Shown one piece after another: positions 26,166 to 42,873 of a stretch of DNA of 64,000 nucleotides. Each line of letters opens with the position of its first letter. Position 1 is the first letter of the stretch. Origin of the DNA: Planctomycetaceae bacterium (GTDB lineage: Bacteria; Planctomycetota; Planctomycetia; Planctomycetales; Planctomycetaceae); the NCBI GenBank assembly GCA_021732785.1, contig JAKFUG010000026.1, positions 62,001-126,000 on the forward strand, read 5' to 3'. The position numbers were made by a program, and so were the translations under genes. The notes below the pieces were generated by a model. That model was given only the letters and a program-made list of their open reading frames with translations, was not told the origin of the DNA and did no database searches.

Positions 26166-27200
26166 AACTGAGGTGTTCCCTCCGTCGACAGGGGTCTCAT
26201 TCACAACCCGTCACCGTAAGAACGGGTCTTCAAAATCACGAATGTGTCATCGCGAACGGCGGAAAGCGAAGCGCGAAAGCCTGAAAATCTGGACTTTCAA
26301 AGTGTTTGGCTTTCCGCTTTTTGCTCTCCGCGAACGGGATTTGAAAACACGTTCCAGGGTTGCGGCAGACATCTACGAATCTGCGGATTTCATTCTGTTC
26401 GAGATGGCGTGTGAGCACCACCCTGCCCGCGAATCATCGCCTACTATGATCACTTCTCTCTCTCAATGGTAGAAACACCGATTCCAGCGGGCGCATGCAC
26501 AGCATTTGGAACTTTCTGCCGCAAGAATCGCTTCGATTGGTAAATTGAAAACGGATGGAGTTGTGAGCATAGAAGGTATGTTCCACTTCGTCGGCAAGGC
26601 TTGCGTAAGCTGCAATCCTTGGCAAATCTTCGACTTGCGCAGACGCTGGAGACGATGCAAGGTTGGCGGAACGAGTACGACGGCGGATGCGTCTCCAGCG
26701 AAATGCCGTTCTGGCGCGACAATTGCAGTTTTGGTGTGTGGGCTCGCGTACTCCAATTTGCAGAATTTGGTTTCAGTCGTGGCGGTCGATTGCCCGGTTT
26801 CACGAGTTCAAAAATGAAGAGTGTGAGAGATTTCCCTAAAAATCGGGGAGTTTGGCAATCCGCACTAGCGAATTTTTTCCTGACGGAGTGAAATGGAGTT
26901 CCTGCCAGTTTAAGTCGTGATCCCTGTCGAAGCGAATTGTGCGTTTTTTGAGTTGGGAAATGGCCTTTCCCATGCTCTTATCGCCCTTCGTTGGCAGCCC
27001 GGTGACGACCTGCCTTTTAGCGTCGAGCTGCATTTGAGGCGGCTCGGTTCCATCCCGGCTGAAGCGGAGTTGAGCTCCGACGAAGGCCCACCAGAGAACC
27101 TCGCCCCACAACGAAGTTCCCGATGCTCGCGCTTCACGGACGAGCCCGACATCGTGTCCCCCAGCCCCCTCGCACACATCGCCAGAAGGAGCCCGTTGTC
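26166..27200. other. 1-kb spacer upstream of the polyketide synthase, no convincing gene
   Basis: The region is noticeably less GC-rich than its surroundings, especially 26480-26960. Several short frames are open on both strands but none has a ribosome-binding site, family motif or consistent codon use. A weak candidate is a minus-strand frame ending at 26836 (last residues NSLVRIAKLPDF), perhaps a gene remnant. The spacer probably contains the promoter and control region of the polyketide synthase cluster. Confidence 0.5.
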
Positions 27201-30200
27201 ATGGGCGCGCGTCATCGTCCGCACCGAGAATTGAAAAACAGTGACATCGCCATTGTTGGTATGTCATGCGTTTTCCCAAAAGCGCCCAACCTGCGGCAAT
27301 ATTGGCAGAATATTCTCCAACGGCTCGACTGCATCCGCGAAATCGATCCCGCACGCTGGGATTCGAGCACGTTCTTCGATGAAGACCGGTTGGCCCGCGA
27401 CAAAATCTATTCCAAGTGGGGCGGCTTCCTCGAATCGATGCGCTTTGATCCGGTGAAGTGGAAGATTCCACCGGCAAGCCTGATGAGCATCGACCCCATC
27501 CAACTGATGTCGCTGGAAGTCGCCAGTCAGGCAATGATCGACGCCGGTTGGGACAAGAAAGAATTCCCCAAGGAAAGCACCGGCTGCATCTTCGCCTGTG
27601 CCGGGTCGCACGATGTCGGGGGGGACTATGCGTTCCGCACGATGCTGCAACACTATCTGCCCCGCGTGAAAGATCTCACGCCGGAGATGAAGCAGCAGAT
27701 TACCGACGATATCAACGCCACATTGCCGGAATGGTCGGAAGACTCGTTCCCCGGCTTCCTGATGAACGTGATCGCCGGACGGATTGCGAACCGGTTCGAT
27801 CTCGGCGGCCCGAACTATGTCGTTGACGCGGCGTGTGCGGCGTCCCTCGCGGCGCTCCATGCGTCGATGGGTCAACTGCGGCTCGGTTCGGTCGATGCCA
27901 TGATCGTCGGAGCGGCGGACGGGACGAACAATCCGTTCTGTTATATGAGCTTCGCCAAGACGCACGCGCTCTCACCCCGCGGAAAATCGCGGCCGTTCGA
28001 TAACTCCGCCGACGGCATCGCACTCGGCGAAGGCATCGCGGCGCTCGTCTTGCGTCGGCTGCCGGATGCCGAACGGGACGGCGACAAGATTTACGCCGTT
28101 ATCAAAGGGATTGGTGCGTCGAGCGACGGCCGCAATCGCAGCATGACGGCCCCGCATCCGCCCGGACAAATCCTGGCGATGAAGCGGGCTTACGAAGACG
28201 CCGATGTCCCGGCAGCAACGGTATCACTCGTCGAAGCCCACGGCACCGGCACCGCGGTCGGCGACAGCACCGAAATTACGTCGCTGCACTCGCTGTTCTC
28301 GCAGGCGACCACCGACGAGCAGTACGCCGCGGTCGGTTCGGTGAAGTCGATGATCGGTCACACCAAGACGTGTGCCGGGTTGGCGAGCCTCGTGAAGACG
28401 GCCCTCGCGCTCCATCACCGCGTGCTGCCGCCGACGTTGAATGTCGAGAAGCCGAACGAAAAGGTCGATTTCCGGCACAGTCCGTTCTACGTGAACACCG
28501 AAACGCGGCCGTGGTTTGACGAACTCGGCGAACACCCGCGCCGCGCCGGCGTGAGCGCCTTCGGGTTTGGCGGCACCAACTTCCACGTCGTAATGGAAGA
28601 ATATGACGGCCCGGCCGAGAACCGTCGCGACACCGATCTGTCGCCGCGTGCGACCGAAGTCTTCGTCTGGAAGCGGGGCACGCGAACGGACATCGTCGCG
28701 ACATTGCAAGCCTTGCAAGCAAACTTGCAAGATGCCCCGGCGCTCGATCTCGCTCAGCTCGCCCAATCGGTTTTGATCGACGGGCAGAACATCGCATCGC
28801 CGTCGAATGCGTGCCGTCTCGCGATCGTTGCCACCACCGTGGAAGACTTCCGGGCGAAGTTGAACAAAGCGGTCGAACAACTCGCTACGAAGTCGGCGTG
28901 GCAGGATCCGACCGGGATTTACTTCTCGGAAGCGGCCGCGATTGCGCCGGAACGGGTGGCGTTCCTGTATCCCGGTCAGGGGTCGCAGTCGGTCAACATG
29001 CTGCGGGATCTCGCGATCTCCAGCCACTGGGCTCAGGATCTGTTCGCGTCGGCCAATCAACAACTGCAAGACCGTTTCCCGGTCTCGTTGACGCGACTGA
29101 TTTTCCCCCCTCCGGCGTTCTCGCAGGAAGAAGACGACGACCGTCGGGCAAAGTTGAATGACACGGCGGTGGCCCAACCCGCTCTCGGTTTGGTCGAAGT
29201 CTTCGCCACGCAGTTGATGGAACGTTACGGGATTGTTCCCGCGGCGGTGGCGGGTCACAGCTATGGCGAATACGTCGCGCTGCATGCCGCGGGGGCGATG
29301 GATGTCGATGATCTGCTGGAAATCTCGGCCGAACGCGGCCGGGTCTCGGCGGAAGCGTCAGAACTCTGTCCGGGGGCGATGGCCGCCGTGATGGCCGGGG
29401 CGGACAAAACGCGCGACCTGCTCGCCCAGGGCGATATCCCCGCGGACCTGGCCAACCTGAATGGTCCCGAGCAGACCATCATTGCCGGTCCGGTGGACGT
29501 GATCGACAAGGCCGTCGCCTATCTGAAAGAGCACGGACTCCGCGCGAAACGCATTCCGGTCACCGCGGCGTTCCATACTTCGGCGCTTGCCCCAGCTGCG
29601 AAGCAACTGGCGAAAGCCCTCCAGGGAATTGCCTTCACGGTTCCGAAGAAGACGGTCTACAGCAACACCCTAGCTGCACCCTATCCTTCCAAAGGACCCG
29701 AGATTCGCAAGTTGCTACAGCGTCACATCGTCGAACCGGTCCGTTTCGAAGAACAGATGCGGCGGATGCGGGAAGATGGTTATGATGTCCTGATCGAAGT
29801 CGGACCGGGCCGCGTGTTGAGCGGACTCATCAGCCGCATTTTCGAGGACGATGTCCCGACGATTCTCACGCTGGATGCCGCAGGAAGAGACGGGGTGACG
29901 CAATTTGCACACCTGCTGGCTCAGGCCACGGTGTTGGGATTGAGCGTCGATTTGCATCCGTGGTTCTCGGCACGAGGATTGCAAGAAGACAGCAGTGAAA
30001 CTTACGTCGCCAACGCGAAAGCGGAAGCGAAACCGAAGCTGGCCGAATGGGTGATTTCGGTTGCCGGAGCGAAACCGGTGACCCCGTTGCCGACACGTCG
30101 CGGAAATCCCGGTGATGGGCTCCGCGCCAAATTTGGCGGCAAAACCGGTACGGTCAACGAGAACAAAGATGACGTGGTGGCACATTCAGCAAATGGGCTG

Positions 30201-31631
30201 AATGGGCCGAATGGAAAGGGCGATAAGCATAACGGAAGTTTGCCGGTTGTGAAGGTTGCGGCGGAAAGCGAGTCCCCGGTTGTCGGGGTGCCCAAGCCGC
30301 TTGCCAATCGCCTGCAGGCTTATGGGGAACCGACACCGGCGGCGGCACCCGCGCCGCTGCCACGCCCGGCCATCGTCGGTTCAAGAATGAACGGCTCGAC
30401 CAACGGATCCACGAACGGACATCACAAGCCAGCGAAAACAACGGCCGTTGAAAAGAACGGTCATGCTCATAGCAATGGAACCGCCACCGCGGTTCGTAAC
30501 GGACAGACGAACGGTCACGCGAATCGAATTTCCGCAGTTTTACCGGGGAGCAACGTACCGATGGCACCGTGCCTCCCGGTCGTCACTGCCCCCCAAATTT
30601 TCCAAGAACCATTGGCACCGTCAACAAGGTTGCATGCCGTGACGACGACGAACCCCATGACGAACGAATCCCACGTACCGGTGTCGGCCGGATCAGCCCA
30701 ACTGATTCTGCAATCTCAAGCTCTGATGATGCAGTTGCTCGATCTGCAGAAATGGCAGCAACAGGTCGCCTTGCGATTTGTCGACGCTCATCAGCAGCTC
30801 ATTCAGCAATGTGCGAATGGCTCCGGGATGCCCGCGCTGATGCCGATGGTCATGCCCTCGGTGGCGATGCCCCAGCCGATGCCCGCGGTGATGGAGCCGA
30901 TTCACGAACATGTGGTCGCTGTGGCTCCGGCCCCGATGCCGGTTGCGGCCCCGGTGGCACCGGCTCCCGCGCCAGTTGCCGTAGCCGCAGTCCCCAGGGC
31001 TGTCGCTCCGGTGGCCGTTGCCGTCGCTCCGAAGCCCGTGGCGGTGGTCGCTCAGAAAGTCGCCGCTCCGGTGGCCCGTGTTTCCCCGGCACCTGCTCCG
31101 GTGGCCAAGCCCGCCAGGACGGAATACGTCAACGGCCACGAACCCGGTCGGAATGGTACGGCTGTCGCCGCCCCGGCTCCGGCCCCCGTTGCGAAAGTAG
31201 CGGCTCCGGCCGCGGTTCCCGCTGGTGACTTGCCTCCGTCGCCCGAAGAATTCAAAGACGACTTGCTGCAAGCCGTGAGCGAACGGACCGGCTATCCAAT
31301 CGAAATGCTCGACCTTGCCTTGCCGATGGAATCGGGTCTCGGAATCGACTCCATCAAAACCGTCGAAGTCTTCAGTAACCTGAAGCGGTATCACCGGGCC
31401 TTCCAGGATGCCGACCAGGACGAAGAAGAAGCGTTGAAGGAATTCACGAACTTCAAGACCCTGGGCGATATCATCGGTGCCTACGAACTCCGCTACCAAG
31501 CGACGGTTTCGGGCACGGCCACCGGCGGAACGCCTGCGGCAACGAATGACGGAACCGTGCAGCGGTACACGTTGCAGACGGCGGATGCTCCTGCGGGTGC
31601 GGAAAAAAAAACTACCCGCGTAGTCAGCTGA
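27201..31631 (+). CDS. Polyketide/PUFA-type synthase, KS-AT-ACP
   Basis: 1476 aa from ATG 27201, with AGAAGGAG upstream. Ketosynthase about 12-465: Cys212 in VVDAACAASLAAL, His347 in EAHGTGT, His387 in KSMIGHTKT. Acyltransferase about 585-900: FLYPGQGSQ, Ser687 in GHSYGE, His792 in AAFHTS. A long linker (930-1340) has Asn-Gly-rich then Ala-Pro-Val-rich repeats. One acyl carrier domain at 1344-1425 carries the phosphopantetheine Ser1384 in GIDSIKTVE. The architecture matches PfaA of PUFA synthases and HglE-like synthases, except for a single carrier domain. The frame stops at TGA 31629 just after nine A; the missing ketoreductase continues in the -1 frame. Confidence 0.92.
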   Translation: MGARHRPHRELKNSDIAIVGMSCVFPKAPNLRQYWQNILQRLDCIREIDPARWDSSTFFDEDRLARDKIYSKWGGFLESMRFDPVKWKIPPASLMSIDPIQLMSLEVASQAMIDAGWDKKEFPKESTGCIFACAGSHDVGGDYAFRTMLQHYLPRVKDLTPEMKQQITDDINATLPEWSEDSFPGFLMNVIAGRIANRFDLGGPNYVVDAACAASLAALHASMGQLRLGSVDAMIVGAADGTNNPFCYMSFAKTHALSPRGKSRPFDNSADGIALGEGIAALVLRRLPDAERDGDKIYAVIKGIGASSDGRNRSMTAPHPPGQILAMKRAYEDADVPAATVSLVEAHGTGTAVGDSTEITSLHSLFSQATTDEQYAAVGSVKSMIGHTKTCAGLASLVKTALALHHRVLPPTLNVEKPNEKVDFRHSPFYVNTETRPWFDELGEHPRRAGVSAFGFGGTNFHVVMEEYDGPAENRRDTDLSPRATEVFVWKRGTRTDIVATLQALQANLQDAPALDLAQLAQSVLIDGQNIASPSNACRLAIVATTVEDFRAKLNKAVEQLATKSAWQDPTGIYFSEAAAIAPERVAFLYPGQGSQSVNMLRDLAISSHWAQDLFASANQQLQDRFPVSLTRLIFPPPAFSQEEDDDRRAKLNDTAVAQPALGLVEVFATQLMERYGIVPAAVAGHSYGEYVALHAAGAMDVDDLLEISAERGRVSAEASELCPGAMAAVMAGADKTRDLLAQGDIPADLANLNGPEQTIIAGPVDVIDKAVAYLKEHGLRAKRIPVTAAFHTSALAPAAKQLAKALQGIAFTVPKKTVYSNTLAAPYPSKGPEIRKLLQRHIVEPVRFEEQMRRMREDGYDVLIEVGPGRVLSGLISRIFEDDVPTILTLDAAGRDGVTQFAHLLAQATVLGLSVDLHPWFSARGLQEDSSETYVANAKAEAKPKLAEWVISVAGAKPVTPLPTRRGNPGDGLRAKFGGKTGTVNENKDDVVAHSANGLNGPNGKGDKHNGSLPVVKVAAESESPVVGVPKPLANRLQAYGEPTPAAAPAPLPRPAIVGSRMNGSTNGSTNGHHKPAKTTAVEKNGHAHSNGTATAVRNGQTNGHANRISAVLPGSNVPMAPCLPVVTAPQIFQEPLAPSTRLHAVTTTNPMTNESHVPVSAGSAQLILQSQALMMQLLDLQKWQQQVALRFVDAHQQLIQQCANGSGMPALMPMVMPSVAMPQPMPAVMEPIHEHVVAVAPAPMPVAAPVAPAPAPVAVAAVPRAVAPVAVAVAPKPVAVVAQKVAAPVARVSPAPAPVAKPARTEYVNGHEPGRNGTAVAAPAPAPVAKVAAPAAVPAGDLPPSPEEFKDDLLQAVSERTGYPIEMLDLALPMESGLGIDSIKTVEVFSNLKRYHRAFQDADQDEEEALKEFTNFKTLGDIIGAYELRYQATVSGTATGGTPAATNDGTVQRYTLQTADAPAGAEKKTTRVVS
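30290..31210 (+). other. Low-complexity linker of the first synthase
   Basis: This stretch encodes the AT-ACP linker. Its first third is rich in Asn-Gly (NGSTNGSTNG, NGHAHSNG, NGQTNGHANR; an earlier NGLNGPNG block lies near 30195), and its last part (about 30900-31210) is nearly pure Ala/Pro/Val (VAAPVAPAPAPVAVAAV). Such flexible linkers let a carrier domain swing between active sites. Confidence 0.7.
31603..31611 (+). other. Run of nine A: probable slippage site joining KS-AT-ACP to KR
   Basis: The sequence GCGGAAAAAAAAACTACC contains A9. Frame 0 reads GAA AAA AAA ACT and ends at TGA 31629; the -1 frame reads GGA AAA AAA AAC TAC and is open from 31550 to 33151. Both frames are open together only between 31550 and 31628, and A9 lies in the middle. 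Ribosomal -1 shifting or RNA polymerase slippage (A10 or A7 transcripts) would give a 1983-residue KS-AT-ACP-KR protein. A sequencing error in the homopolymer is the other explanation. Confidence 0.7.
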
Positions 31632-31657
31632 TTCTGCTGCTTGGCGAAGCCGCGGAA

Positions 31658-33151
31658 TTGACGTCGACTGTAACGGCCGGACTGACGCAGGAAGGTTACC
31701 GTTACCGCTGTATCCTTCCCGGATCGCGGGCGCGAAAGGTTTCTGCGGAAACCTATGAAGTCGACTTCGGTTCGCCGGAATCGTTGCAGGAATTGCGGCA
31801 ACTTCTCGTCGGTTCGTCGGGCGAAATCATCGGTGCCGCGATCAACTTCCTCGGGATCAGTCAGGCGTATGCGGCGACGGGGTGTGCCAGCGGTGAAGCT
31901 GCGTTGCAGGTCACGCTGTGGTCGTTCCAATTCCTGAAGGAATTCGCGAACGATCTCACCGCGGCGGCGCAGCAGGGGGGCGGCACGGTGATGAACCTCA
32001 CCGCGCTCGATGGCCGCCTCGGCTTGGGGCGCGGCGGACGAATGGCCCTCACCTCGTCGGGACTGCTCGGACTCTTCAAGACCTTCCAGCAGGAATATCC
32101 GACGCTGCGGGTGAAGACCGTCGACCTCGATCTCAGCGCGGGCAACACGATCATGGGATCGCGATTGCTCGACGAGTTGATGGTCGATGATCATCTCGTG
32201 GAAGTCGGCTTGAGTGCGACCGGGCGCTCCACGGTGCGGTTGGAGCGGACGACCGCCCATCCGACACAACTCGGGCCGCTGCCCTTGGACAAATCCTCGG
32301 TGGTGCTCATCACCGGTGGAGCGAACGGCATCACTTACGACGCTGCGTTGCGATTAGCCGAACTCGCGAAGCCGACGCTGATCCTGGTCGGCCGATCGCC
32401 GCTGCCCGAGCCGGAAGGGGACGACACGCGCGATCTCGACACCGCCAAGTTGCGGATGCACCTCATCCAGCAACGCAAAGCGCAGGGACAGCCGATGGTC
32501 CCCGCGCAGATCGAACAGAATCTGCGGCGGATCCTGAAAGACCGGCAGATTCTCGACAATCTCGCGGCGTTGGAAGCCACCGGGGCCACCGTCGAATATC
32601 ACTCGATGGATGTCCGCGATGAGGAAACGTTCGGAGGACTCATCGATGACGTCTACACCCGGTTCGGTCGCATCGATGGCGTAATCCACGGCGCGGGGGT
32701 CATCGAAGACAAGTTGATGAAAGATAAAACCCCGCAATCGTACAGCAACGTGTTTTCCACGAAGGTGGACAGCGCTTTAATCCTGGCGAAGCGGTTGAAG
32801 CCCGCGGAGTTGAAATTCCTCGTCTTCTTCTCCTCGGTCTCCGGGCGGTTTGGGAATGGCGGGCAAGCGGACTACAGCGCGGCCAATGAGTTCCTGAACA
32901 AGCTGGCGGATGACCTGGATCGCAAGTGGCCAGGCCGCATCGTCGCGATCAACTGGGGGGCTTGGGATGCTGGCATGGTTTCTGATGAACTGCGCAAACT
33001 TTATGCGGCACGCGACCTGTACATGATCCCGATCCCCGATGGGGTCCAATTCCTCGAAAATGAGCTGCGATTGGGCAGCCGGGGCGAGCCCGAAGTGACG
33101 ATTGCGTGTAGCATTCCCAAGTTAATTGAGATGGTGTCCGCTCGGCGGTGA
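31658..33151 (+). CDS. Ketoreductase domain (-1 frame continuation of the first synthase)
   Basis: Open to TGA 33151; the first possible start is TTG 31658, with no ribosome-binding site, and domain-like sequence (SQLILLLGEAAEL) begins before it. So it is probably read by frameshift from the upstream gene rather than started here. Residues are numbered from 31658. A structural subdomain about 1-205 precedes the NADPH-binding KR: ITGGANGI at 218-225, catalytic Ser in FFSSVSGRFG (near 393-395), Tyr406 and Asn410 in QADYSAANEF, and a late VAINWGAWDAGM. It reduces the 3-keto group after each chain extension. In PfaA this domain follows the carrier domains in one chain. Confidence 0.88.
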   Translation: MTSTVTAGLTQEGYRYRCILPGSRARKVSAETYEVDFGSPESLQELRQLLVGSSGEIIGAAINFLGISQAYAATGCASGEAALQVTLWSFQFLKEFANDLTAAAQQGGGTVMNLTALDGRLGLGRGGRMALTSSGLLGLFKTFQQEYPTLRVKTVDLDLSAGNTIMGSRLLDELMVDDHLVEVGLSATGRSTVRLERTTAHPTQLGPLPLDKSSVVLITGGANGITYDAALRLAELAKPTLILVGRSPLPEPEGDDTRDLDTAKLRMHLIQQRKAQGQPMVPAQIEQNLRRILKDRQILDNLAALEATGATVEYHSMDVRDEETFGGLIDDVYTRFGRIDGVIHGAGVIEDKLMKDKTPQSYSNVFSTKVDSALILAKRLKPAELKFLVFFSSVSGRFGNGGQADYSAANEFLNKLADDLDRKWPGRIVAINWGAWDAGMVSDELRKLYAARDLYMIPIPDGVQFLENELRLGSRGEPEVTIACSIPKLIEMVSARR

Positions 33152-33174: not shown

Positions 33175-36100
33175 ATGTCATCAAATGACGTAGCGATTGT
33201 CGGGTTGGGATGCGCTTTCCCGCGCTCGGCGAACGTGCGCGAGTTCTGGCGAAATAACGTCAACAGTGTCGACTGCATTGAAACGCTTCCCGCGCATCGG
33301 CTGCCCCACGCGCGCAACTGGAAGCGACCGGTTACGGATGACGCCTGGTTGCCGTTCCCACGGGGGGGCTTTCTCCCGCCGGGAATCGGCACCGATCCGA
33401 TGCAGTACGGCATCACTCCGAACGTCCTGCGCTATGGTGATCCCGATCAGTTCCTGATGTTGAACGTCGTCGATCAGGCTTTGCAAGATGGCCACATCGC
33501 CGCGGATGATGTCCGCCGCGCACGGACCGACGTGATCGTCGGTCGCGGCAGCTATCCCGGCAACAAGGCGAGCGAGACCGGCCTGCGCGTCGAATACTTC
33601 GACACGATTCTGAACATGCTGGAGCGGAAGTTTCCCGAGCGCTTTCCGCGCGAACAGCGGGATGAACTCGAAACATTTTTCCGTTCGACATTGCCTCCCA
33701 GCGAAGCCGATTCGTTATCAACCGCGATCAACAACATCACGGCCAGCCGGGCGGCGAACCGGCTCAATCTCGGTGGGACCGCGCATTGCGTGGACGGGGC
33801 ATGTGCGTCCGGGTTGATTGCCATCGAGCAAGGTTTGGATCGCTTGCGGCTCGGCAAGGCGGATCTCGTTGTCGCGGGGGGATTCTTTCTCACGCAGACG
33901 CAGATTTTCATGCACGTCTTCACGCGCATCGGGGCGGTGTCGAAATCGGGCATGATTCGCCCGATGGACCGCCGCGCGGATGGTTTGCTGATCGGTGAAG
34001 GAGCCGGGGCGGTTCTGCTCAAGCGGCTCGAAGATGCGATTGCTGATGGCGACCACGTTTACGCGATCATCAAAGGGGCCGGGTCCGCGAGCGATGGCCG
34101 CGATGTGGACGTGCTCGCGCCGTCGATGCAGGGCCAACTCCGGGCGCTCCACCAGGCGTATCAAGACGCGAACATCGATCCCGCGAGCATCGGTTACCTC
34201 GAACTGCACGGCACCGGGACCGTGCTGGGCGATCTTACGGAGCTGGAGACCGTCAAGGAATTCTTCGGGCGGTCGAAGCATCCGCCGACGACGCGCGCGA
34301 TGGGGACGGTGAAGTCGATCATCGGCCACTGCATGCCCGCGTCGGGAATCGCAGCGGTGATTCGGACGGCATTGGCGCTGTCGAACAAAGTTTTGCCCCC
34401 GAGTTTGCACTGCGAAGAACCGCGGCCGGAACTGGTCGATTCGCCGTTCTACATCAACACCACCACGCGACCGTGGGTGCAGAACGAAGCCCGTGGGCCG
34501 CGCCGCGCCGGCGTCAATTCGTTCGGCTTCGGCGGCATCAACGGCCACCTCGTGCTGGAGGAAGTCGTCACCGCCGGGAAGTCGCGCCGCAAGACCAAGG
34601 CCATTCTGCCGCGACCGATTGAACCGACGGTCGATCGCCCCAGCGAACTCGCGGTGTTTGCGGCGAAGTCACCACAGGCGCTCATTCAACAGTTCCAGCA
34701 GTTGCAACGTTTCCTGACGGAAGACCAGCAGACCAAGACACCAGCCGGCATTGCGGCCGCATTGACGAAGCAGATTGACGCCGCGCAGCCGTGCAAGCTG
34801 GCGATCATCTTTCAGACACTGGAAGAACTCACCGACAAGCTCGATCGGCTGGTGCCGGAGTTGACCGGAGCAACCACCACCGCGACTTCCGGCGTGGGGT
34901 CCGGCAGCAATCAACCGCTCGGCGATGAGCAGATTTATTACTCCGCCGATGCCAAACAACCGCCCGGTAAAATCGCGTTTCTCTTCCCGGGAATGGGCTT
35001 TCCCGGCCTCATCGGCAACTATCCCGATCACGTTCTCGAACTCTGCCTCCACTATCCCGAACTGCGGCAGGAGTTCGATTATTTCGAAGAGCGCGACCGC
35101 CATCCGGATGACGATATCCCCACCAGTTCGGTCTTCGTGCCGCCCGCCTCTTTGCCGGAAGAATATCGTCAGAAGCTGAAAGCCCGCCTCGCGCCGCCGA
35201 AGAGCGAGAACGAAACGGCGAACGCCCCCGCAAAACCGGAAGAGCGGTATCTCGCGGCGATGGGCGTCACGCTGGTCAACTGGATCAGTTGGACGTTGCT
35301 CGAGCAGTTTCAGGTCCCCGTCGACATGATGACGGGGCAAAGCCAGGGCGAAATGGCCGCGCTCTGTGCTGCCGGGATGTCCGATTTCCACGAGACCGCC
35401 CCGGCGTATTGGAAGGTGCTCAACGTCGACTGGCGCGATGCGGCCGGTGGGCGATTGGCCTTCGTGTTTGCTTCCGCCGAGAAGGTGCAGCCCTACCTCG
35501 ACGAAGAACCGGGGACGTACATCGCGATCTACACGATGCCGTCGGCGATCATTCTCGGGGGCGATCGGAACGGGTTGGCCCGGATCGCCGAGAAGCTGCG
35601 GAAGGAAGAAATCTTCACGCAGTTGCTCCCGTATCCGCCGATCCACACGCCGTGCCTGAGTTACCTGCTCGAAGAGTTGCAGCAATCGTTGCAGGACCAC
35701 GAATTCAAAGTTCGTTCGCCGAAGGTGAAGCTCTATTCTTCGATCACGACGAAACCGTATCCGACGACAGAAGCGGAAGTCCGCAAGACGTTGATGCTCA
35801 ATCTCGATCATCCGCTCCGCGTGTGGGAAACCCTGCGGCGGATTTATGATGACGGAGCACGGGTTTTCGTGCAGGTGGGCGGCGGGCACATGTCGGCCCA
35901 CATGAAGCAGTTCTTCCCGGCCGGCGCGAACGTGGTGACCGCGGCGCTCGATGTCGACACCCGCAATCCGATCACGCAACTCAACCACCTCGTCGGTGGG
36001 TTGTTCACGGCGGGCGTGCCGATGACGCTCGACCCGTTGTATGCGCACCGTCGAATTGAGCCGCTCGATTTGTCCGCCCCGCGCGCGGCTGAACCGGTAC

Positions 36101-38055
36101 CGAAGATGTTCTTCCCGTTGCGGCTGGAATGGTCGCCGGAGTTTCATCCCAACGTGCCGCCCGCAGTGGAAGAATCAACCGACACACTTGCGCTTGGCGA
36201 AGTCCCAGCGCCCGCGACCGTTCCCGAACCCGCTCCTCCTGAACCCGCCCACATCGGCAATGGCGTGGCTCCCGTCACCGCGGCAGCCGAGTTGGTGATG
36301 CCCGCGCCCGAGCCGGAACCAACACCCGACCCGGATGCCGTCGGCCCGGCAGTCGTCGAATTCGATGTCCCGCTGCCGGTGCTGGGAACGGTCACGCACT
36401 ACGTTGCCGATCGGGAACTCGTCATCGAACGGATGATTGATGTCGATGACGATCTGTTCCTGCACGATCACCTGTTCGTGTACGCCCCGTATCGGCACGC
36501 GAAGGATTGCCTGCCGATTGTGCCGTTGACGATGAGCCTGGAATTCACCGCTGAAGCCGCGGCGTTGCTGTGCCCGGGTCTCGGTTTGATCGGTTATGAA
36601 AACGTGCGGGCGATGCGCTGGGTGGCGCTGGAAGACGTCCCGCGCAAGAAATTGACCATCATCGCCAACGCGGCTCCCAACGACGGTGAAGACGGTGTCC
36701 GCCGAATTGAAGTCACCCTGATGATGGGTGAAACCCGGTGCCTGTCGGCGCGGGTATTGTTTGCGGAGGCATACCGGCAGACAATGGAATTTGAATGGCC
36801 CGACAGCTCGCAGGATCCGGCGTGGCCGATCCACATCGACGAATTGTACGTCGAACGGCGGATGTTCCACGGTCCTTCGTTCCATGTCGTCTCGGCGCTG
36901 GGACAGTTCGGTAATCCCGTCAGCACTTCCCAATTGCGGGTGCTGCCGAAAGATAAACTCTTCCGCAATTTGCCGGAGCCTCAACTGCTGGTCGACCCGT
37001 GCCTGTTCGACGGAGTGGGGCAGATGGCGGGCCTGTGGTGCCAGATCTTCGACTGGTTCGTGCTGCCGACCGGTGTCGACCGGATTGAAATCTACGGTCC
37101 GACACCGCCGGTGGGGACCGACTGCGATCTGCGCGTGCAGATCACGAAGTTCGACATGGACACGAAGCAGATGCGGGCCAATATCGAACTGGGCGATGGC
37201 GCGGGGGGGGTGTGGGCGCGGTTTGAAGGCTGGGGCGACTGGCTGTTCCGGACGACGCAGAAATACATCCAGTTCCAGCGCGATCCGTCCCGTTGGGCAC
37301 TCATCGAGCCGGTCGACATTCCGGGATTGCCGGACGATGTGATCATTGGCTGGACCGACGATGCGTGTCTGGCGGGCGTGGAAATGCTGTGTGCCCAGCG
37401 GCAGATTCTGGAACCGAGCGAGTTCCCGGAATACGAACAACTCACGGGACACAAACCGCGCAAGCAGTTTCTGCTGAGCCGCATCGTTGCCAAAGACGCG
37501 GCCCGCGCCTGGGTCGCCCGGGAAACCGGCCAACCGCTGGCGCACCCCGGACAGTTCCGGATCGGTCACGATGACCGCGGCAAACCGTACGTGCTCGATT
37601 TGGCTGACGGACCACTGCCGGTCATTTCCGTCGCCCACAAGGAACGGACCGTCATCGCGGCGGCGGCGGGCGTGCCGATCGGGATCGACATCGAATCCGC
37701 GAGTCACGACACGGTGGCACTGCTGCCGACATTTGCCGCCGATGCAGAACGGGAATTGTTACAACCCTGGCTGGACGCCGACCCCGATGCCGTCTGGGCC
37801 ACCCGGTTGTGGTGTGCGAAGGAAGCCGCCGGAAAAGCCCGCGGGACCGGTTTAGACGGTCGGCCGAAACGGTTGCAGGTCGTCGAACTGGACGAAACGG
37901 GGCGGATGGTGATTCAAGACATGCACGATGGGGGGGTGTACGAAGTGCAGACCGCCATCGTGACGCAATGGGTGATCGCGGTGGCCTTACCACTGCTGGA
38001 GACTAGCGGTCGCACCGGACTTGCCGACTCGCACGAAGCGGAAGCGGCGAACTGA
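33175..38055 (+). CDS. Polyketide/PUFA-type synthase, KS-AT-DH-phosphopantetheinyl transferase
   Basis: 1626 aa from ATG 33175, 23 bases after the KR stop. Ketosynthase 4-465: Cys210 in VDGACASGL, His345 in ELHGTGT, His385 in KSIIGHCMP, so it looks catalytically complete. Acyltransferase about 598-945: FLFPGMGFPG, Ser723 in GQSQGE, His824. An Ala/Pro/Glu linker (1000-1060) leads to a hot-dog dehydratase about 1065-1370, with His1097/1099 in LHDHLF and Asp1274 in DPCLFDG. The end (about 1430-1600) is a 4'-phosphopantetheinyl transferase: PIGIDIES (Asp1505, Glu1507) and WCAKEAAGKA. No carrier domain is present, so it should act on the ACP of the first protein and also activate it. Confidence 0.93.
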   Translation: MSSNDVAIVGLGCAFPRSANVREFWRNNVNSVDCIETLPAHRLPHARNWKRPVTDDAWLPFPRGGFLPPGIGTDPMQYGITPNVLRYGDPDQFLMLNVVDQALQDGHIAADDVRRARTDVIVGRGSYPGNKASETGLRVEYFDTILNMLERKFPERFPREQRDELETFFRSTLPPSEADSLSTAINNITASRAANRLNLGGTAHCVDGACASGLIAIEQGLDRLRLGKADLVVAGGFFLTQTQIFMHVFTRIGAVSKSGMIRPMDRRADGLLIGEGAGAVLLKRLEDAIADGDHVYAIIKGAGSASDGRDVDVLAPSMQGQLRALHQAYQDANIDPASIGYLELHGTGTVLGDLTELETVKEFFGRSKHPPTTRAMGTVKSIIGHCMPASGIAAVIRTALALSNKVLPPSLHCEEPRPELVDSPFYINTTTRPWVQNEARGPRRAGVNSFGFGGINGHLVLEEVVTAGKSRRKTKAILPRPIEPTVDRPSELAVFAAKSPQALIQQFQQLQRFLTEDQQTKTPAGIAAALTKQIDAAQPCKLAIIFQTLEELTDKLDRLVPELTGATTTATSGVGSGSNQPLGDEQIYYSADAKQPPGKIAFLFPGMGFPGLIGNYPDHVLELCLHYPELRQEFDYFEERDRHPDDDIPTSSVFVPPASLPEEYRQKLKARLAPPKSENETANAPAKPEERYLAAMGVTLVNWISWTLLEQFQVPVDMMTGQSQGEMAALCAAGMSDFHETAPAYWKVLNVDWRDAAGGRLAFVFASAEKVQPYLDEEPGTYIAIYTMPSAIILGGDRNGLARIAEKLRKEEIFTQLLPYPPIHTPCLSYLLEELQQSLQDHEFKVRSPKVKLYSSITTKPYPTTEAEVRKTLMLNLDHPLRVWETLRRIYDDGARVFVQVGGGHMSAHMKQFFPAGANVVTAALDVDTRNPITQLNHLVGGLFTAGVPMTLDPLYAHRRIEPLDLSAPRAAEPVPKMFFPLRLEWSPEFHPNVPPAVEESTDTLALGEVPAPATVPEPAPPEPAHIGNGVAPVTAAAELVMPAPEPEPTPDPDAVGPAVVEFDVPLPVLGTVTHYVADRELVIERMIDVDDDLFLHDHLFVYAPYRHAKDCLPIVPLTMSLEFTAEAAALLCPGLGLIGYENVRAMRWVALEDVPRKKLTIIANAAPNDGEDGVRRIEVTLMMGETRCLSARVLFAEAYRQTMEFEWPDSSQDPAWPIHIDELYVERRMFHGPSFHVVSALGQFGNPVSTSQLRVLPKDKLFRNLPEPQLLVDPCLFDGVGQMAGLWCQIFDWFVLPTGVDRIEIYGPTPPVGTDCDLRVQITKFDMDTKQMRANIELGDGAGGVWARFEGWGDWLFRTTQKYIQFQRDPSRWALIEPVDIPGLPDDVIIGWTDDACLAGVEMLCAQRQILEPSEFPEYEQLTGHKPRKQFLLSRIVAKDAARAWVARETGQPLAHPGQFRIGHDDRGKPYVLDLADGPLPVISVAHKERTVIAAAAGVPIGIDIESASHDTVALLPTFAADAERELLQPWLDADPDAVWATRLWCAKEAAGKARGTGLDGRPKRLQVVELDETGRMVIQDMHDGGVYEVQTAIVTQWVIAVALPLLETSGRTGLADSHEAEAAN

Positions 38056-38058
38056 GCC

Positions 38059-38262
38059 ATGACGGCGGAGGAATCGCAAGGGGGGTGGACATCCTGTCCG
38101 ACCCTTCCTTGCACAGTGGTGTGCAGTGCGCGCCGGGAACGCATTCCGGTGGAAAACTGTGACGGCTGTGTCGACGTTATGGAGGATTACGATCGTGGCA
38201 TCCGGAACACATTCCAACCCGACCCCGGGCATCACCATTTCCGATCTCCAGCTCAAAGATGA
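38059..38262 (+). CDS. Possible small Cys-rich protein overlapping the adaptor gene
   Basis: 67 aa from ATG 38059, three bases after the synthase stop. It has six cysteines, arranged as SCPTLPCTVVCSARR and VENCDGC, a pattern that could bind zinc. The last 68 bases overlap the HlyD-like gene in another frame. No family is recognised and no clear ribosome-binding site is seen. It may be a real small operon member or chance. Confidence 0.3.
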   Translation: MTAEESQGGWTSCPTLPCTVVCSARRERIPVENCDGCVDVMEDYDRGIRNTFQPDPGHHHFRSPAQR

Positions 38263-39556
38263 CGAGCGGAGTAACGGCTCGTCCCTGTTGAGCAGCGGGC
38301 TGTTCTGGCTCGTCCTGCTCGGCCTGATTGGGGGCGGCGCGTGGTGGTATCAGAAGAGCGCCGGGGCCATGCCCGAATGGGGCGCGAAACTTTCGCCCGA
38401 GCTCGATACCGCCGTGGTGGCTCCCAAAGAGCATGAAGACGTGGCCCTGGAGCTGTCGGGCTTCATCGTCCCCTATCGCAAGGTGAACGTCTCGCCCCGA
38501 ATTCCCGGTACCGTGATGAAGCTGACAATCGACGTCGGCAAAACCGTTAAGGAAGGGGATCTCCTCGCCCAACTCGACGACATCACTTACCAAGCCGACG
38601 TGCAACAGGCGGATGCGGCCCTGAAAGCCGCGCGCAGCCGTCTGGAGGAAATCAAATCCGGCGCGTTGGCCGAGGAAATCGAACAGGCCCGCACGGGTGT
38701 CGAGGGTGCGAAGTCCAAAGTCGAGTACCTGAAGAAAGAACTGGCCCGCTCGGAATCGCTGAAGGACTCCGTGTCCCCGGCGGAACTCGACTCGCTGCGA
38801 TCGACGCTGAATGACGCCGATGTCAACGCGCGGGGGTTGGATCAGAAACTGCAACTGCTCATCAAGGGTGTCCGTGCGGAACGCCGCCAGGCCGCCGAAG
38901 CGGAAATTCAGCAAGCCGAAGCCGTGTTGACGAAAGCGAAATACATTCTCGAGAACACGAAGATCTTTGCCCCGCTCGATGGGACCGTCCTCGACAAGAA
39001 CGCGCAAGTCGGCGAAATTCTGCGACCCGAAGTGCTCGCCACCAGCCTGTGTGTTCTCGCTGATTTGACGATCCTGGAAGTCGAAGTGGACGTCCAGGAA
39101 CGCGATCTGCAAAAGGTTGAAGTCGGTCGGCCCTGCCACATCGTTCCCGATGCCTATGCTGACCGTAAATACGAAGGCAAGATCGACCGGATTCAACCGA
39201 TGGTCAACCGGGCGCGCGGCGTCGTGCGGGTGACAATTCGCATTACGGAACCGGACCGTTACCTGCTGCCCGATATGAACGTCCGCGCGATCATCGATAA
39301 CCCGGTGGAAACCGCGAGTGCGGCGGAGACCCTCTGGATTCCCGAGGCCGCCGTGGTGAAGGAAGCCGATCAGTCCGTCGTGTTTGTCCTCGACCAGGAA
39401 AAAGTTCGCCGACAGGTGGTGACCCTCGGTACGACGGAGGCGAAGAAGACGGAGGTGAAGGCCGGCCTCAAAGCGGGCGACGTCGTAGTGTTGCCGGGCA
39501 ATAAATCTTTGACTGACGGTCAAACGGTTCACACGAAAGCGGGCAAAACACCGTAG
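38195..39556 (+). CDS. HlyD/MacA/DevB-type periplasmic adaptor protein
   Basis: 453 aa. The GTG at 38195 is chosen because GGAGG lies nine bases before it; the alternative upstream frame has no site. One transmembrane helix (SSGLFWLVLLGLIGGGAWWY) anchors it. A biotinyl-lipoyl half (NVSPRIPGTVMKLTIDVGKTVKEGDLLAQLDD), a coiled-coil hairpin about residues 115-245, the second half (TKIFAPLDGTVLDKNAQVGE), and beta-barrel and proximal domains follow. Adaptors of this type connect an ABC or RND pump to an outer-membrane channel. It begins the export half of the synthase cluster, followed by an ATPase and two FtsX-type permeases. Confidence 0.92.
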   Translation: MASGTHSNPTPGITISDLQLKDDERSNGSSLLSSGLFWLVLLGLIGGGAWWYQKSAGAMPEWGAKLSPELDTAVVAPKEHEDVALELSGFIVPYRKVNVSPRIPGTVMKLTIDVGKTVKEGDLLAQLDDITYQADVQQADAALKAARSRLEEIKSGALAEEIEQARTGVEGAKSKVEYLKKELARSESLKDSVSPAELDSLRSTLNDADVNARGLDQKLQLLIKGVRAERRQAAEAEIQQAEAVLTKAKYILENTKIFAPLDGTVLDKNAQVGEILRPEVLATSLCVLADLTILEVEVDVQERDLQKVEVGRPCHIVPDAYADRKYEGKIDRIQPMVNRARGVVRVTIRITEPDRYLLPDMNVRAIIDNPVETASAAETLWIPEAAVVKEADQSVVFVLDQEKVRRQVVTLGTTEAKKTEVKAGLKAGDVVVLPGNKSLTDGQTVHTKAGKTP

Positions 39557-39631
39557 AATGAGACGCGTCTGAGCGCTTCAGCGCTCGATGGATGATGTTG
39601 GTCCTGTGCCGCTGCGAATGAATTGCCCCTT

Positions 39632-40372
39632 ATGTCCGACGTCATCGTTCAGGTCGATGAAGGTTTCAAAGAGTACTCCCGCGGCGCGGAGCGCGTGGAG
39701 GTTCTCAAGGGCGTGAGCCTGAAAATCTACCGCGGGGAATTCGTCGCGCTCATCGGCCCCTCGGGTTCGGGCAAAACGACATTGCTGAACCTGATCGCCG
39801 GGCTCGATCAACCGACGCGCGGCCGGGTGGTCATCAACGGTCGCGATATCAGCCGCATGAGCGAATCGGAACTGGCCCGCTGGCGCACGACCGCCATCGG
39901 CTTCGTCTTTCAGTTCTATCATCTCATTCCGGTGCTCACGGCGTATGAGAACGTGGAACTGCCGTTGCTGCTGCTGAATATGTCTGCGAGCCGCCGCCGC
40001 AAACAGGCGTTGAATGCGCTCGGGCTGGTCGGGCTGAGTCATCGTCTCACGCACCGACCGGGGCAGCTCTCCGGGGGGGAACAACAGCGTGTGGGGATTG
40101 CCCGCGCGCTGGTGACCGACCCGGCTCTCGTCGTCGCCGATGAACCGACCGGGGACCTCGACGGTCGCAAGAAAGAAGAAATTCTCGACCTGCTGCAACA
40201 ACTGCAGGAAGGGTTGAACAAGACGATTTTGATGGTGACGCACGACCACACTGCCGCATCACGGGCGCATCGCCTGCTGCGAATCAGCGATGGCATGTTG
40301 CTGGAAGAACACGCCGAGACGCGCGAAGAAGCCCTCGCCCTCGCCTTCCCCGACGCCAAACTCCGCCCCTAG
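39632..40372 (+). CDS. ABC transporter ATPase, MacB/LolD/DevA type
   Basis: 246 aa from ATG 39632 (MSDVIVQVDEGF); a TTG at 39623 is less likely. Walker A GPSGSGKTT (42-50), Q-loop FVFQFYHLIP (Gln94), ABC signature LSGGEQQR (146-153), Walker B LVVADEPTGDLD and the switch His in MVTHDH are all intact. The family powers FtsX-fold permeases for lipoprotein, lipid or macrolide export. It lies 75 bases after the adaptor and 85 before the first permease. Confidence 0.95.
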   Translation: MSDVIVQVDEGFKEYSRGAERVEVLKGVSLKIYRGEFVALIGPSGSGKTTLLNLIAGLDQPTRGRVVINGRDISRMSESELARWRTTAIGFVFQFYHLIPVLTAYENVELPLLLLNMSASRRRKQALNALGLVGLSHRLTHRPGQLSGGEQQRVGIARALVTDPALVVADEPTGDLDGRKKEEILDLLQQLQEGLNKTILMVTHDHTAASRAHRLLRISDGMLLEEHAETREEALALAFPDAKLRP

Positions 40373-40457
40373 TCTGTCCCCCAATTTGCAATTTGCATTT
40401 TTTCACTTACTAATTGCCAATCGTCCTGGCCCCCTCTCTGACAATCGCCGTTATTCC

Positions 40458-41630
40458 ATGTTGTTCAAGTTCATCAATCTCGTCTTCAAAAGCCTCGGAC
40501 GGAACAAGGTCCGGACGGCGTTGACGGGCATGGGGGTGATTGTCCTCGTCGCGATTTATGCGATCGTGACGAACGTCACCTCCACGGTGAAAAGCAAAAT
40601 CTCCGGCGGCGATCAGACGCGGTTGATCGTCTCCGAGCGCTGGACCATGCCCAGCCAGATTCCCTCGCGCTACGTCAGCGAAATCGCCAAATTGCCGGGC
40701 GTCAAAAACTTCACGACGTGGACGATCTTCGTCGGTTTTCTCGACAGGATTCCCCAGGCCGATCGGCAGGTCGCGGTTCTTTCCGTCCATCCGCAAACGC
40801 TGCGCGAGATGCACGGCGGCTTGATGGATCTCCCCGACGAGGTCTACGAAGAATGGCTCAGCACCAAGGATGCGGTCCTCGTCGGCCCGGGGATGATGAA
40901 GAAAATGAACTGGCACATCGGCCAGCAGTTCACGGTCTTCGGAGCCCGCTTCCCCCCCGTGGATGTGCAATACCGCATCATTGGGACCATTCCCGGCGGC
41001 GAATGGGCCAGTGCGATTTTTTGCCGACAGGATTATCTCGCGGATGCCTCCGACAACAGCGGTTCCGTCAATGCGATTCTCCTGTCGGTGGAGAGTGAAG
41101 AGCGGGCCAAGCAACTCGCGTCCGAGTTGTCGAAGGAGTACGAGAACCGTCAACCGGCGCTGAAGATTGAGACCGAATCCGCCGGTGTCGCGCGGTTCGC
41201 CTCTCGCAGCACCGCGGTGTTGCAGATCATTGACGCCGTGGTCGCGATTCTGCTCATCGACATGGTGATCATTCTCTCGAACAGCATCAGCATCTCGGTG
41301 CGCGAACGGCGGGTGGAAATGGCCGTGCTGAAGGTGCTCGGTTTTCAACCGCTGCACATCGCGATCATGATTATCGGTGAAGCGATGTTCGTGGGAGGGA
41401 TCGCCGGGATGATTGGGACGGGGATTGTCTGTTCCATCTCGACGCTCACGCTGTCGGGTGCGATTCCGCTCGCCAAGTGGAATTCGTTCCTGCTGCAGTT
41501 CCCGGTCCCGTGGTCCGCCGTTCTGTGGAGCGGTCTCCTCGGTGCCGGCGTGGGCCTCACCGGCAGCGTTTTCCCCGCCATGGCCACCCGCAAAGTGAAA
41601 GTGTCCGACGTGTTCGCGAGAATCGCTTAA
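40458..41630 (+). CDS. FtsX-fold ABC permease, first copy
   Basis: 390 aa from ATG 40458. Topology is that of the MacB/LolCE/DevC group: one N-terminal helix (VRTALTGMGVIVLVAIYAIV), a periplasmic MacB-PCD-like domain of about 220 residues, then three C-terminal helices (VVAILLIDMVIILSNS, ALKVLGF-type coupling motif VEMAVLKVLGFQPLHIAIM, and GLLGAGVGLTGSVFPAMATRK). The coupling motif contacts the ATPase. It works with the second permease, probably as a heterodimer. Confidence 0.93.
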   Translation: MLFKFINLVFKSLGRNKVRTALTGMGVIVLVAIYAIVTNVTSTVKSKISGGDQTRLIVSERWTMPSQIPSRYVSEIAKLPGVKNFTTWTIFVGFLDRIPQADRQVAVLSVHPQTLREMHGGLMDLPDEVYEEWLSTKDAVLVGPGMMKKMNWHIGQQFTVFGARFPPVDVQYRIIGTIPGGEWASAIFCRQDYLADASDNSGSVNAILLSVESEERAKQLASELSKEYENRQPALKIETESAGVARFASRSTAVLQIIDAVVAILLIDMVIILSNSISISVRERRVEMAVLKVLGFQPLHIAIMIIGEAMFVGGIAGMIGTGIVCSISTLTLSGAIPLAKWNSFLLQFPVPWSAVLWSGLLGAGVGLTGSVFPAMATRKVKVSDVFARIA

Positions 41631-41633
41631 GTG

Positions 41634-41723
41634 GTTGTCAGTTGTCAGTTGCTGGTTCTCAGTGAGGAATGAGATCTCAAGTGATGACCCGGAACTGAGA
41701 ACTGACAACTGAGAACTGACAAC
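41634..41723. repeat. GTTGTCAGTT-type repeats with inverted partner
   Basis: The spacer between the two permease genes starts with GTTGTCAGTTGTCAGTTG and ends with AACTGAGAACTGACAACT units, forming imperfect inverted repeats. It contains no gene. Confidence 0.65.
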
Positions 41724-41724
41724 T

Positions 41725-42873
41725 ATGATCCCCGTCAAATACAACGCGCGCAACCTCGTCGTCCGGTGGAAGACGACGCTCATGACCGCGTCGGGCTTCA
41801 CGCTGGTCGTGGCTGCGCTGGTGGTCATGCTGGCGTTTGTCGAAGGCGTGCAGCAGGTTTGTACGACGAGCGGCGAACCGCAGAATGTCATCGTCCTCGC
41901 CAAAGGGAACAACGACGAAGTCTTCAGCCAGCTCGATACGCGCTCGGGACGGGAAATCGAACGGACCAAAGGGATCGCGCGGCGGGGTGACGGGCAGATG
42001 CTCGCCAGCCGCGAAATCTTCCTCGTGATGCACCGCCATCTCGAATCGGCCAACGTCTTCAAATTCCTGCAGGTCCGCGGCGTCGAGCCCGTCGCCTTCG
42101 ATGTGCATACGCAAGTCAAGATCACCGGGGGGCGCAACTTCCGCCCGAACCAGAGCGAAATCATCATCGGCAGCGGCGTGCAGCGCGAGCACGAACTCGC
42201 GATTGGCGACAGCATGGCTCTCGGTCGCAAGCAATGGAAAGTCGTCGGTATCTTCACCGCCAACGGGACCGCGTTTGAATCGGAAGTCTGGTGCGATCAA
42301 AGCGAACTCGCCAGCCAGTTCCGCCGCGAAGGCGTGTTCAGTTCGATGGTGGTGCGGACCGACTCTCCTGCGCAGGCCGCCGAAGTGGTGGAACGCCTGA
42401 AGGACAGCCGGTCGCTTGTCTGCAACCCGATGACCGAAACGGAGTATTACTCGAAGCAAGCGGCACAGACGGAGATGATCACCGCCGCCGCGTGGGTGAT
42501 CGCGTGGTTCATGGGCATCGGGGCCATCTTCGGCGTGATGAACACCATGTTCGCGGCCATCGGTCAGCGTCGGAAAGACATCGCCGTGCTGCGCATCCTC
42601 GGCTTCAAACCGTACGAGATTCTCATCTCGTTTCTGCTGGAAGCGATTCTCATTTCCATTGTGGGCGGGTTTCTGGGCATCATGATCGGAATGGTGGTCA
42701 ACGGCTTCAGCCGCAGCACCGCCGTCGGGTCGCGCGAAGTCGAATTTGCCTTCAAGGTGACGCAAACCACCATTACGTTTGCTGCCGGGTTCTCGATCTC
42801 GATGGGCATTCTCGGCGGCCTGCTTCCCGCGCTGTCCGTCGTGCGCGTGCAGCCGCTGGAAGCGTTGAAGTAG
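41725..42873 (+). CDS. FtsX-fold ABC permease, second copy
   Basis: 382 aa from ATG 41725. Same layout as the previous gene: N-terminal helix (TASGFTLVVAALVVMLAFV), extracytoplasmic domain about 40-255, and three helices including WVIAWFMGIGAIFGVMNTMF, the coupling motif IAVLRILGFKPYEILISF and a last helix FSISMGILGGLLPALSVVR. The sequences of the two permeases are clearly different, which favours a heterodimer over a recent duplication. A repeat element follows the stop codon, likely ending the operon. Confidence 0.93.
   Translation: MIPVKYNARNLVVRWKTTLMTASGFTLVVAALVVMLAFVEGVQQVCTTSGEPQNVIVLAKGNNDEVFSQLDTRSGREIERTKGIARRGDGQMLASREIFLVMHRHLESANVFKFLQVRGVEPVAFDVHTQVKITGGRNFRPNQSEIIIGSGVQREHELAIGDSMALGRKQWKVVGIFTANGTAFESEVWCDQSELASQFRREGVFSSMVVRTDSPAQAAEVVERLKDSRSLVCNPMTETEYYSKQAAQTEMITAAAWVIAWFMGIGAIFGVMNTMFAAIGQRRKDIAVLRILGFKPYEILISFLLEAILISIVGGFLGIMIGMVVNGFSRSTAVGSREVEFAFKVTQTTITFAAGFSISMGILGGLLPALSVVRVQPLEALK

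Follow-up and report, generated by a model that had tools for sequence, protein, structure and literature searches.

The window analysed here is the whole stretch of 64,000 nucleotides (nt) from Planctomycetaceae bacterium (assembly GCA_021732785.1, contig JAKFUG010000026.1, positions 62,001 to 126,000 of the forward strand), and this study concerns a gene in it for a large lipid or polyketide synthase, whose coding sequence is divided between two overlapping reading frames. The zero frame encodes ketosynthase (KS), acyltransferase (AT) and acyl carrier protein (ACP) domains. It was open from 27063 and ended at TGA 31629-31631, and its start is likely ATG 27201, which is preceded by AAGGAG. 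A ketoreductase (KR) lies in the -1 frame, which was open from 31550 to 33148 and closed by a stop at 33149-33151. A run of nine A (A9) at 31603-31611, in the context GCGG-AAAAAAAAA-CTACCC, falls within the 79-base overlap of the two open frames, and the -1-frame codons at the run are AAC TAC CCG. Joined at the run, the two parts would give a fused product of 1470 + 513 = 1983 amino acids (aa). Strong Pfam matches were obtained for KS, AT and KR, and the domain order KS-AT-ACP-KR is present when the -1-frame KR is counted. Direct reading confirmed what an initial annotation, made from the sequence alone, had claimed about the position of the run inside the overlap, the KS-AT-ACP content of frame 0 with its stop at 31629, and the product lengths of 1476 and 1983 aa (counted from ATG 27201). 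The features of the locus are as follows:

27186..27191, + strand: AAGGAG, likely ribosome-binding site of the synthase gene, 9 bases 5' of ATG 27201
27201..31631, + strand: zero-frame open reading frame (ORF) KS-AT-ACP, 1476 aa, TGA at 31629-31631 (KS and AT by Pfam)
27240..28448, + strand: ketosynthase domain (PF00109 + PF02801; Pfam)
28962..29894, + strand: acyltransferase domain (PF00698; Pfam)
31260..31391, + strand: single acyl carrier protein domain with GIDSI motif (PF00550, 20.4 bits, just below the cut-off of 20.8)
31550..31628, + strand: zero and -1 frames both open, 79 bases (ORF reading)
31603..31611, + strand: A9, putative slippage site, zero-frame codons GAA AAA AAA ACT, containing A-AAA-AAA (conserved as A9/A10 in ten genomes)
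31610..33151, + strand: -1-frame KR part, 513 aa, which would be joined to KS-AT-ACP only via slippage (ORF, Pfam, codon analysis and predicted structure)
32300..32968, + strand: catalytic KR subdomain (PF08659; Pfam, with the KR fold by structure match)
33175..38055, + strand: next gene, KS-AT-dehydratase (DH)-phosphopantetheinyl transferase, 1626 aa (Pfam; similar frame in relatives)

Members with the same layout were searched for in 40 relatives, in 398 genomes of the class, in families and the phylum, and in 84,980 species genomes. Ten were found, namely the window's genome, G001, G032, G143, G153, G157, G246, G275, G318 and L061, which span at least five families; L060 (JAHBXV010000018.1) is the same contig as G143 and was counted once. 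Their KRs were 39-73% identical to the KR of the window (nine aligned). In all ten the frame of the KR was -1 to that of the ACP, and the junction run stood exactly at the frame switch, as A9 in five members and A10 in the other five; programmed transcriptional slippage calls for about nine or more A or T in a row where the frame changes. The edges of the run differed among members by substitutions (GAA AAA AAA ACT, TCA AAA AAA AAT, CAA AAA AAA AAT and TCA AAA AAA AAA CCT), and none of the ten carried a one-base insertion or deletion that merged the two frames. Alignment of homologues at the ACP-KR junction had been set as a test in the initial annotation, and its outcome spoke for slippage. 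The main rival named at that time was a homopolymer sequencing error, taken here together with assembly error, which would make an ordinary one-frame gene look split. Homopolymers are prone to sequencing error, and the window's assembly is a draft of 96 contigs. However, ten genomes from different projects had the same -1 relation, with an A9 or A10 flanked by substitutions and never a merging indel. These relatives, with the same out-of-frame KR and run, ruled out an error, to which we give a negligible probability. The A-run with its two-frame layout is, by this comparison, a conserved arrangement and not a sequencing mistake.

Runs of this length were rare. A9 occurs five times in the window's 6.69-Mb genome, both strands together, and by our arithmetic one would fall by chance on the correct strand of a single 79-base overlap with a probability of roughly 3e-5. 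The members' genomes gave 5-17 window hits for A9 per 5-10 Mb genome. AAA was a minority codon for lysine in all ten members, and in the most GC-rich of them (73% GC around the locus) it made up 11% of the lysine codons in these genes. Among 73 runs of at least nine A in nine genomes, 11 were called as -1 frame switches, and nine of these were the synthase.

Codon comparison of the window with G001 revealed differences of 120/73/295 at the three codon positions of the KR (512 codons) and of 3/2/8 over the 20 codons that follow the run directly. Over the KR, the proportions of nonsynonymous (pN) and synonymous (pS) differences were 0.18 and 0.73, respectively, and no stops were found. By this pattern the -1 frame is under purifying selection starting with the first codons after the run. 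The result also bears on phase variation or decay, in which the run slips in replication and the KR has been caught switched off or dying. Nine-A runs do slip in replication as well. However, on/off differences in run length between genomes were not seen, the same -1 state was present in 10/10 (about 2e-5 by our arithmetic, if three states were equally likely and the members independent), and the KR is conserved by selection as just described, so that phase variation was rejected and appears very improbable.

The residues directly after the run were conserved too. In nine members an aromatic residue and proline were followed by a hydrophobic strand ending in glycine and an acidic residue; G157 had two extra residues, and in L061 the residues after the run were more divergent than in the other nine. 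An AlphaFold model of the KR part (mean predicted local distance difference test score, pLDDT, 86; predicted template modelling score, pTM, 0.87) placed the first strand at residues 6-11 counted from the run, and this predicted structure matched polyketide synthase ketoreductases over the whole chain (e.g., 5d2e, 2fr0, 3mjv). The model therefore puts a domain boundary at the run, with the first strand of the KR fold predicted to begin five residues past it. The KR could instead be a separate protein, like pfaA2, translated from its own start or after reinitiation past the TGA. In favour of this, clusters of types D and H have pfaA1 and pfaA2 as split genes (PMC3098273), a TTG occurs at 31658 of the window, and in several members a GTG or TTG lies no more than about 60 nt from the run. 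However, no start codon in the KR frame after the run was conserved among the members, in agreement with the earlier claim that the KR lacks a credible start: the first in-frame ATG, GTG or TTG came 376 nt after the run in G001, 180 nt in G318 and 101 nt in G143. In most members the conserved residues that form the first strand of the fold precede the first start, and a separate KR would leave the conserved A9/A10 unexplained. An independent start was therefore rejected, and a separate KR protein is highly unlikely. Because of the selection, the onset of the fold at the run and the lack of conserved start codons, the most likely way for the KR to be made is as part of a fusion protein, with the run as the entry into its frame.

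A tree was built from 61 KR regions. The ten members grouped together with L070 (JAJSAJ010000314.1), from a Planctomycetota metagenome-assembled genome, with support of 99/99. L070 has no A-run, and its ACP and KR are in one frame; it nested inside the slippage group (support 93/94), while L064, which is in frame, was the sister. Nearly all of the more distant relatives were in frame and lacked a run of this kind at the junction. Judging from the tree, the A-run was likely lost in L070, which can serve as a natural control, its run being absent and its frames fused. Since L070 is fused in one frame, KS-AT-ACP-KR would be a sensible target product. In L075 (BPKO01000001.1, Candidatus Tectomicrobia), the KR frame differed from the long upstream synthase frame and no homopolymer of seven or more was present; this unrelated frame break is an error or another kind of split.

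Taken together, we consider it probable (about 80%) that the two frames of this synthase gene are decoded through programmed slippage at the conserved A9/A10 between ACP and KR. Unslipped messages would give KS-AT-ACP of 1476 aa. In a fraction of messages, RNA polymerase would add one non-templated A (A9 to A10), which would put the KR in frame, and these slipped messages would give KS-AT-ACP-KR of 1983 aa. Both products would accumulate, and their ratio would set how often beta-keto groups get reduced. The zero-frame stop followed the run by 0-10 codons in all ten members, and the third frame closed within 11 codons. Both distances were shorter than at a typical site of these genes (mean percentile 0.20 and 0.16, respectively, values that are non-independent through shared ancestry), in keeping with KS-AT-ACP being a defined short product made alongside the long KS-AT-ACP-KR. 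The short product may have a role of its own, and the ratio may be regulated. The regulated dual output suggested in the initial annotation is thus supported in part, in that two products follow from the architecture. Some points weigh against programmed slippage as described here. The members share ancestry and are not fully independent, so that the counts overstate independence; a tree keeping the ten slippage KRs apart from L070 was not rejected (approximately unbiased test, p-AU 0.38); and A-AAA-AAA stands in a ribosome-usable phase in every member.

The last point raises ribosomal -1 frameshifting on A-AAA-AAA, as in Escherichia coli dnaX, which could join the two frames with polymerase slippage being minor. 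The heptamer was in the right phase in 10/10, with A-AAA-AAG in G157. However, any A9 contains A-AAA-AAA in every phase, and the heptamer alone therefore decides nothing. In positional tests, sequences resembling Shine-Dalgarno (SD) motifs were commoner before the run than elsewhere in the same genes (mean percentile 0.16), and the downstream 60-nt folds were somewhat stable (mean percentile 0.29). In the synonymous-codon controls, however, the upstream SD-like signal vanished (mean p 0.47), since the amino acids that make up the acidic, glycine-rich linker account for it, and an SD-stimulated ribosomal slip was thus rejected as the main route. The downstream RNA structure gave mixed z-scores, and its signal was nearly gone in the corresponding control, with no consistent selection (mean p 0.32). 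Polymerase slippage is favoured because neither the SD-like motif nor the RNA structure appears to be selected. It is also favoured by run length, which in total was never below nine in the ten members though seven bases would serve a ribosome; the run edges shifted against the codon phase. Furthermore, in a large proportion of bacterial genomes it is at nine nt that selection against slippage-prone runs starts to show (PMC1088944), which points the same way. The Thermus dnaX A9 yields 50% short product (PMC1088944), and known polymerase-slippage genes have efficiencies of about 15-55% (PMC4256274). Ribosomal frameshifting as the principal route therefore seems unlikely. Given that slippage is programmed, these comparisons make it quite probable that the slip is mainly transcriptional, although ribosomal -1 slippage may contribute. 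The choice between the two had been left undecided before; slippage itself was supported here, and the evidence favours transcription.

Another of the genome's five A9 runs (C22:70717-70725) splits a gene unrelated to the synthase (L003/L165; contig C22, about 69284-71199, minus strand). Its product is a glycine-rich protein with a TPR-like C-terminal part of 477 aa in the -1 frame, and it matched no curated family above that family's cut-off. A frame switch at the run was observed in 26 of 30 fetched loci (22 A9 with -1, two A9 with +1, one A8 with -1 and one A10 with -1), and no SD-like signal was found at the run of this gene. In several other families the gene is a single frame of 1330-1621 codons. 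The two +1 loci, L167 (G001) and L193 (G005), in which the downstream frame is +1 relative to the upstream one at A9, could reflect a different slip product or a sequence error. They would fit polymerase slippage, because it yields several lengths, whereas a +1 shift is impossible by a -1 ribosomal slip. This gene suggests that more planctomycete genes are hidden by A9 slippage. The broader proposition is that planctomycetes use A9 polymerase slippage as a general device. The synthase would be made in two forms at a fixed proportion, one containing the reducing domain and one lacking it, and the product spectrum of an iterative synthase would thereby be fixed by RNA polymerase and not by separate genes; the second, unrelated conserved gene would be decoded likewise in most of the family. 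For this proposition we see the chances as evenly balanced. Two more runs of the genome were inspected. L005 (C54:14989-14997) is an A9 between OrfA- and OrfB-like frames of an IS3-type transposase (rve, HTH_21), and IS3-type transposases are a known class of frameshift genes. L004 (C39:37076-37084) is an A9 read in frame (AKKKKR) within a 1002-codon open stretch, so that slippage there would shorten the product, as in Thermus dnaX.

Around the locus, open frames of about 1600-1990 codons were present downstream of the KR in relatives, in the same place as the KS-AT-DH-phosphopantetheinyl transferase gene of the window. Directly 3' of the synthase genes, positions 38126-42873 of the window encode an HlyD-like protein, an ABC ATPase and two MacB/FtsX-like permeases, possibly an exporter of the synthase product. 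The window's genome also has a conventional one-frame PfaA-like synthase (C8:182495-184264, open frame of 2319 codons), and therefore both synthase types coexist there.

In the literature searched, which was mostly without subscription papers, there was no report of a polyketide or fatty-acid synthase with programmed frameshifting or slippage, nor of any planctomycete case; the mechanism itself is of a known kind (Thermus dnaX, mxiE, tssM). If it operates here, gene-calling tools annotate each of these synthases as two pieces and misread their chemistry, and polymerase slippage can determine which domains an iterative synthase contains. The ten members and the in-frame relative L070 make the slippage question directly testable. 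In E. coli dnaX, ribosomal -1 frameshifting takes place on A-AAA-AAG. The synthase run resembles it in having a heptamer in phase, but neither a selected SD element nor a conserved stem-loop was found at this run. In domain order (KS-AT-ACP-KR) the synthase is similar to PfaA-type secondary lipid synthases, and the PfaA profile was its best NCBIfam match, though KS-AT-ACP (816 bits) and KR (226 bits), scored apart and not as a fused chain, were both below the TIGR02813 cut-off of 1010 bits. It differs from PfaA in having one ACP and not a tandem array, and from PfaA-type systems in that the next gene is KS-AT-DH-phosphopantetheinyl transferase. PfaA types D and H have separate pfaA1 [KS-AT-ACP] and pfaA2 [KR] genes, split at the same ACP-KR boundary (PMC3098273); the earlier statement that ACP and KR are one chain in PfaA-like enzymes was therefore too strong. 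In contrast to these split genes, the halves here are in overlapping frames that would be joined by slippage. In Shigella mxiE and spa genes and in Citrobacter tssM, too, an extra nucleotide joins two overlapping ORFs, and a short and a long protein are made, with slippage efficiencies of 15-55% (PMC4256274; PMC1088944), but those are secretion or regulator genes and not a synthase. Another parallel is Thermus thermophilus dnaX, where A9 lies near a domain boundary and one gene yields both a long and a short product through slippage of the polymerase (PMC1088944). The gene class is unrelated, and the direction is reversed: in Thermus the standard frame encodes the long product and slippage shortens it, whereas here the standard product would be the short one and slippage would lengthen it.

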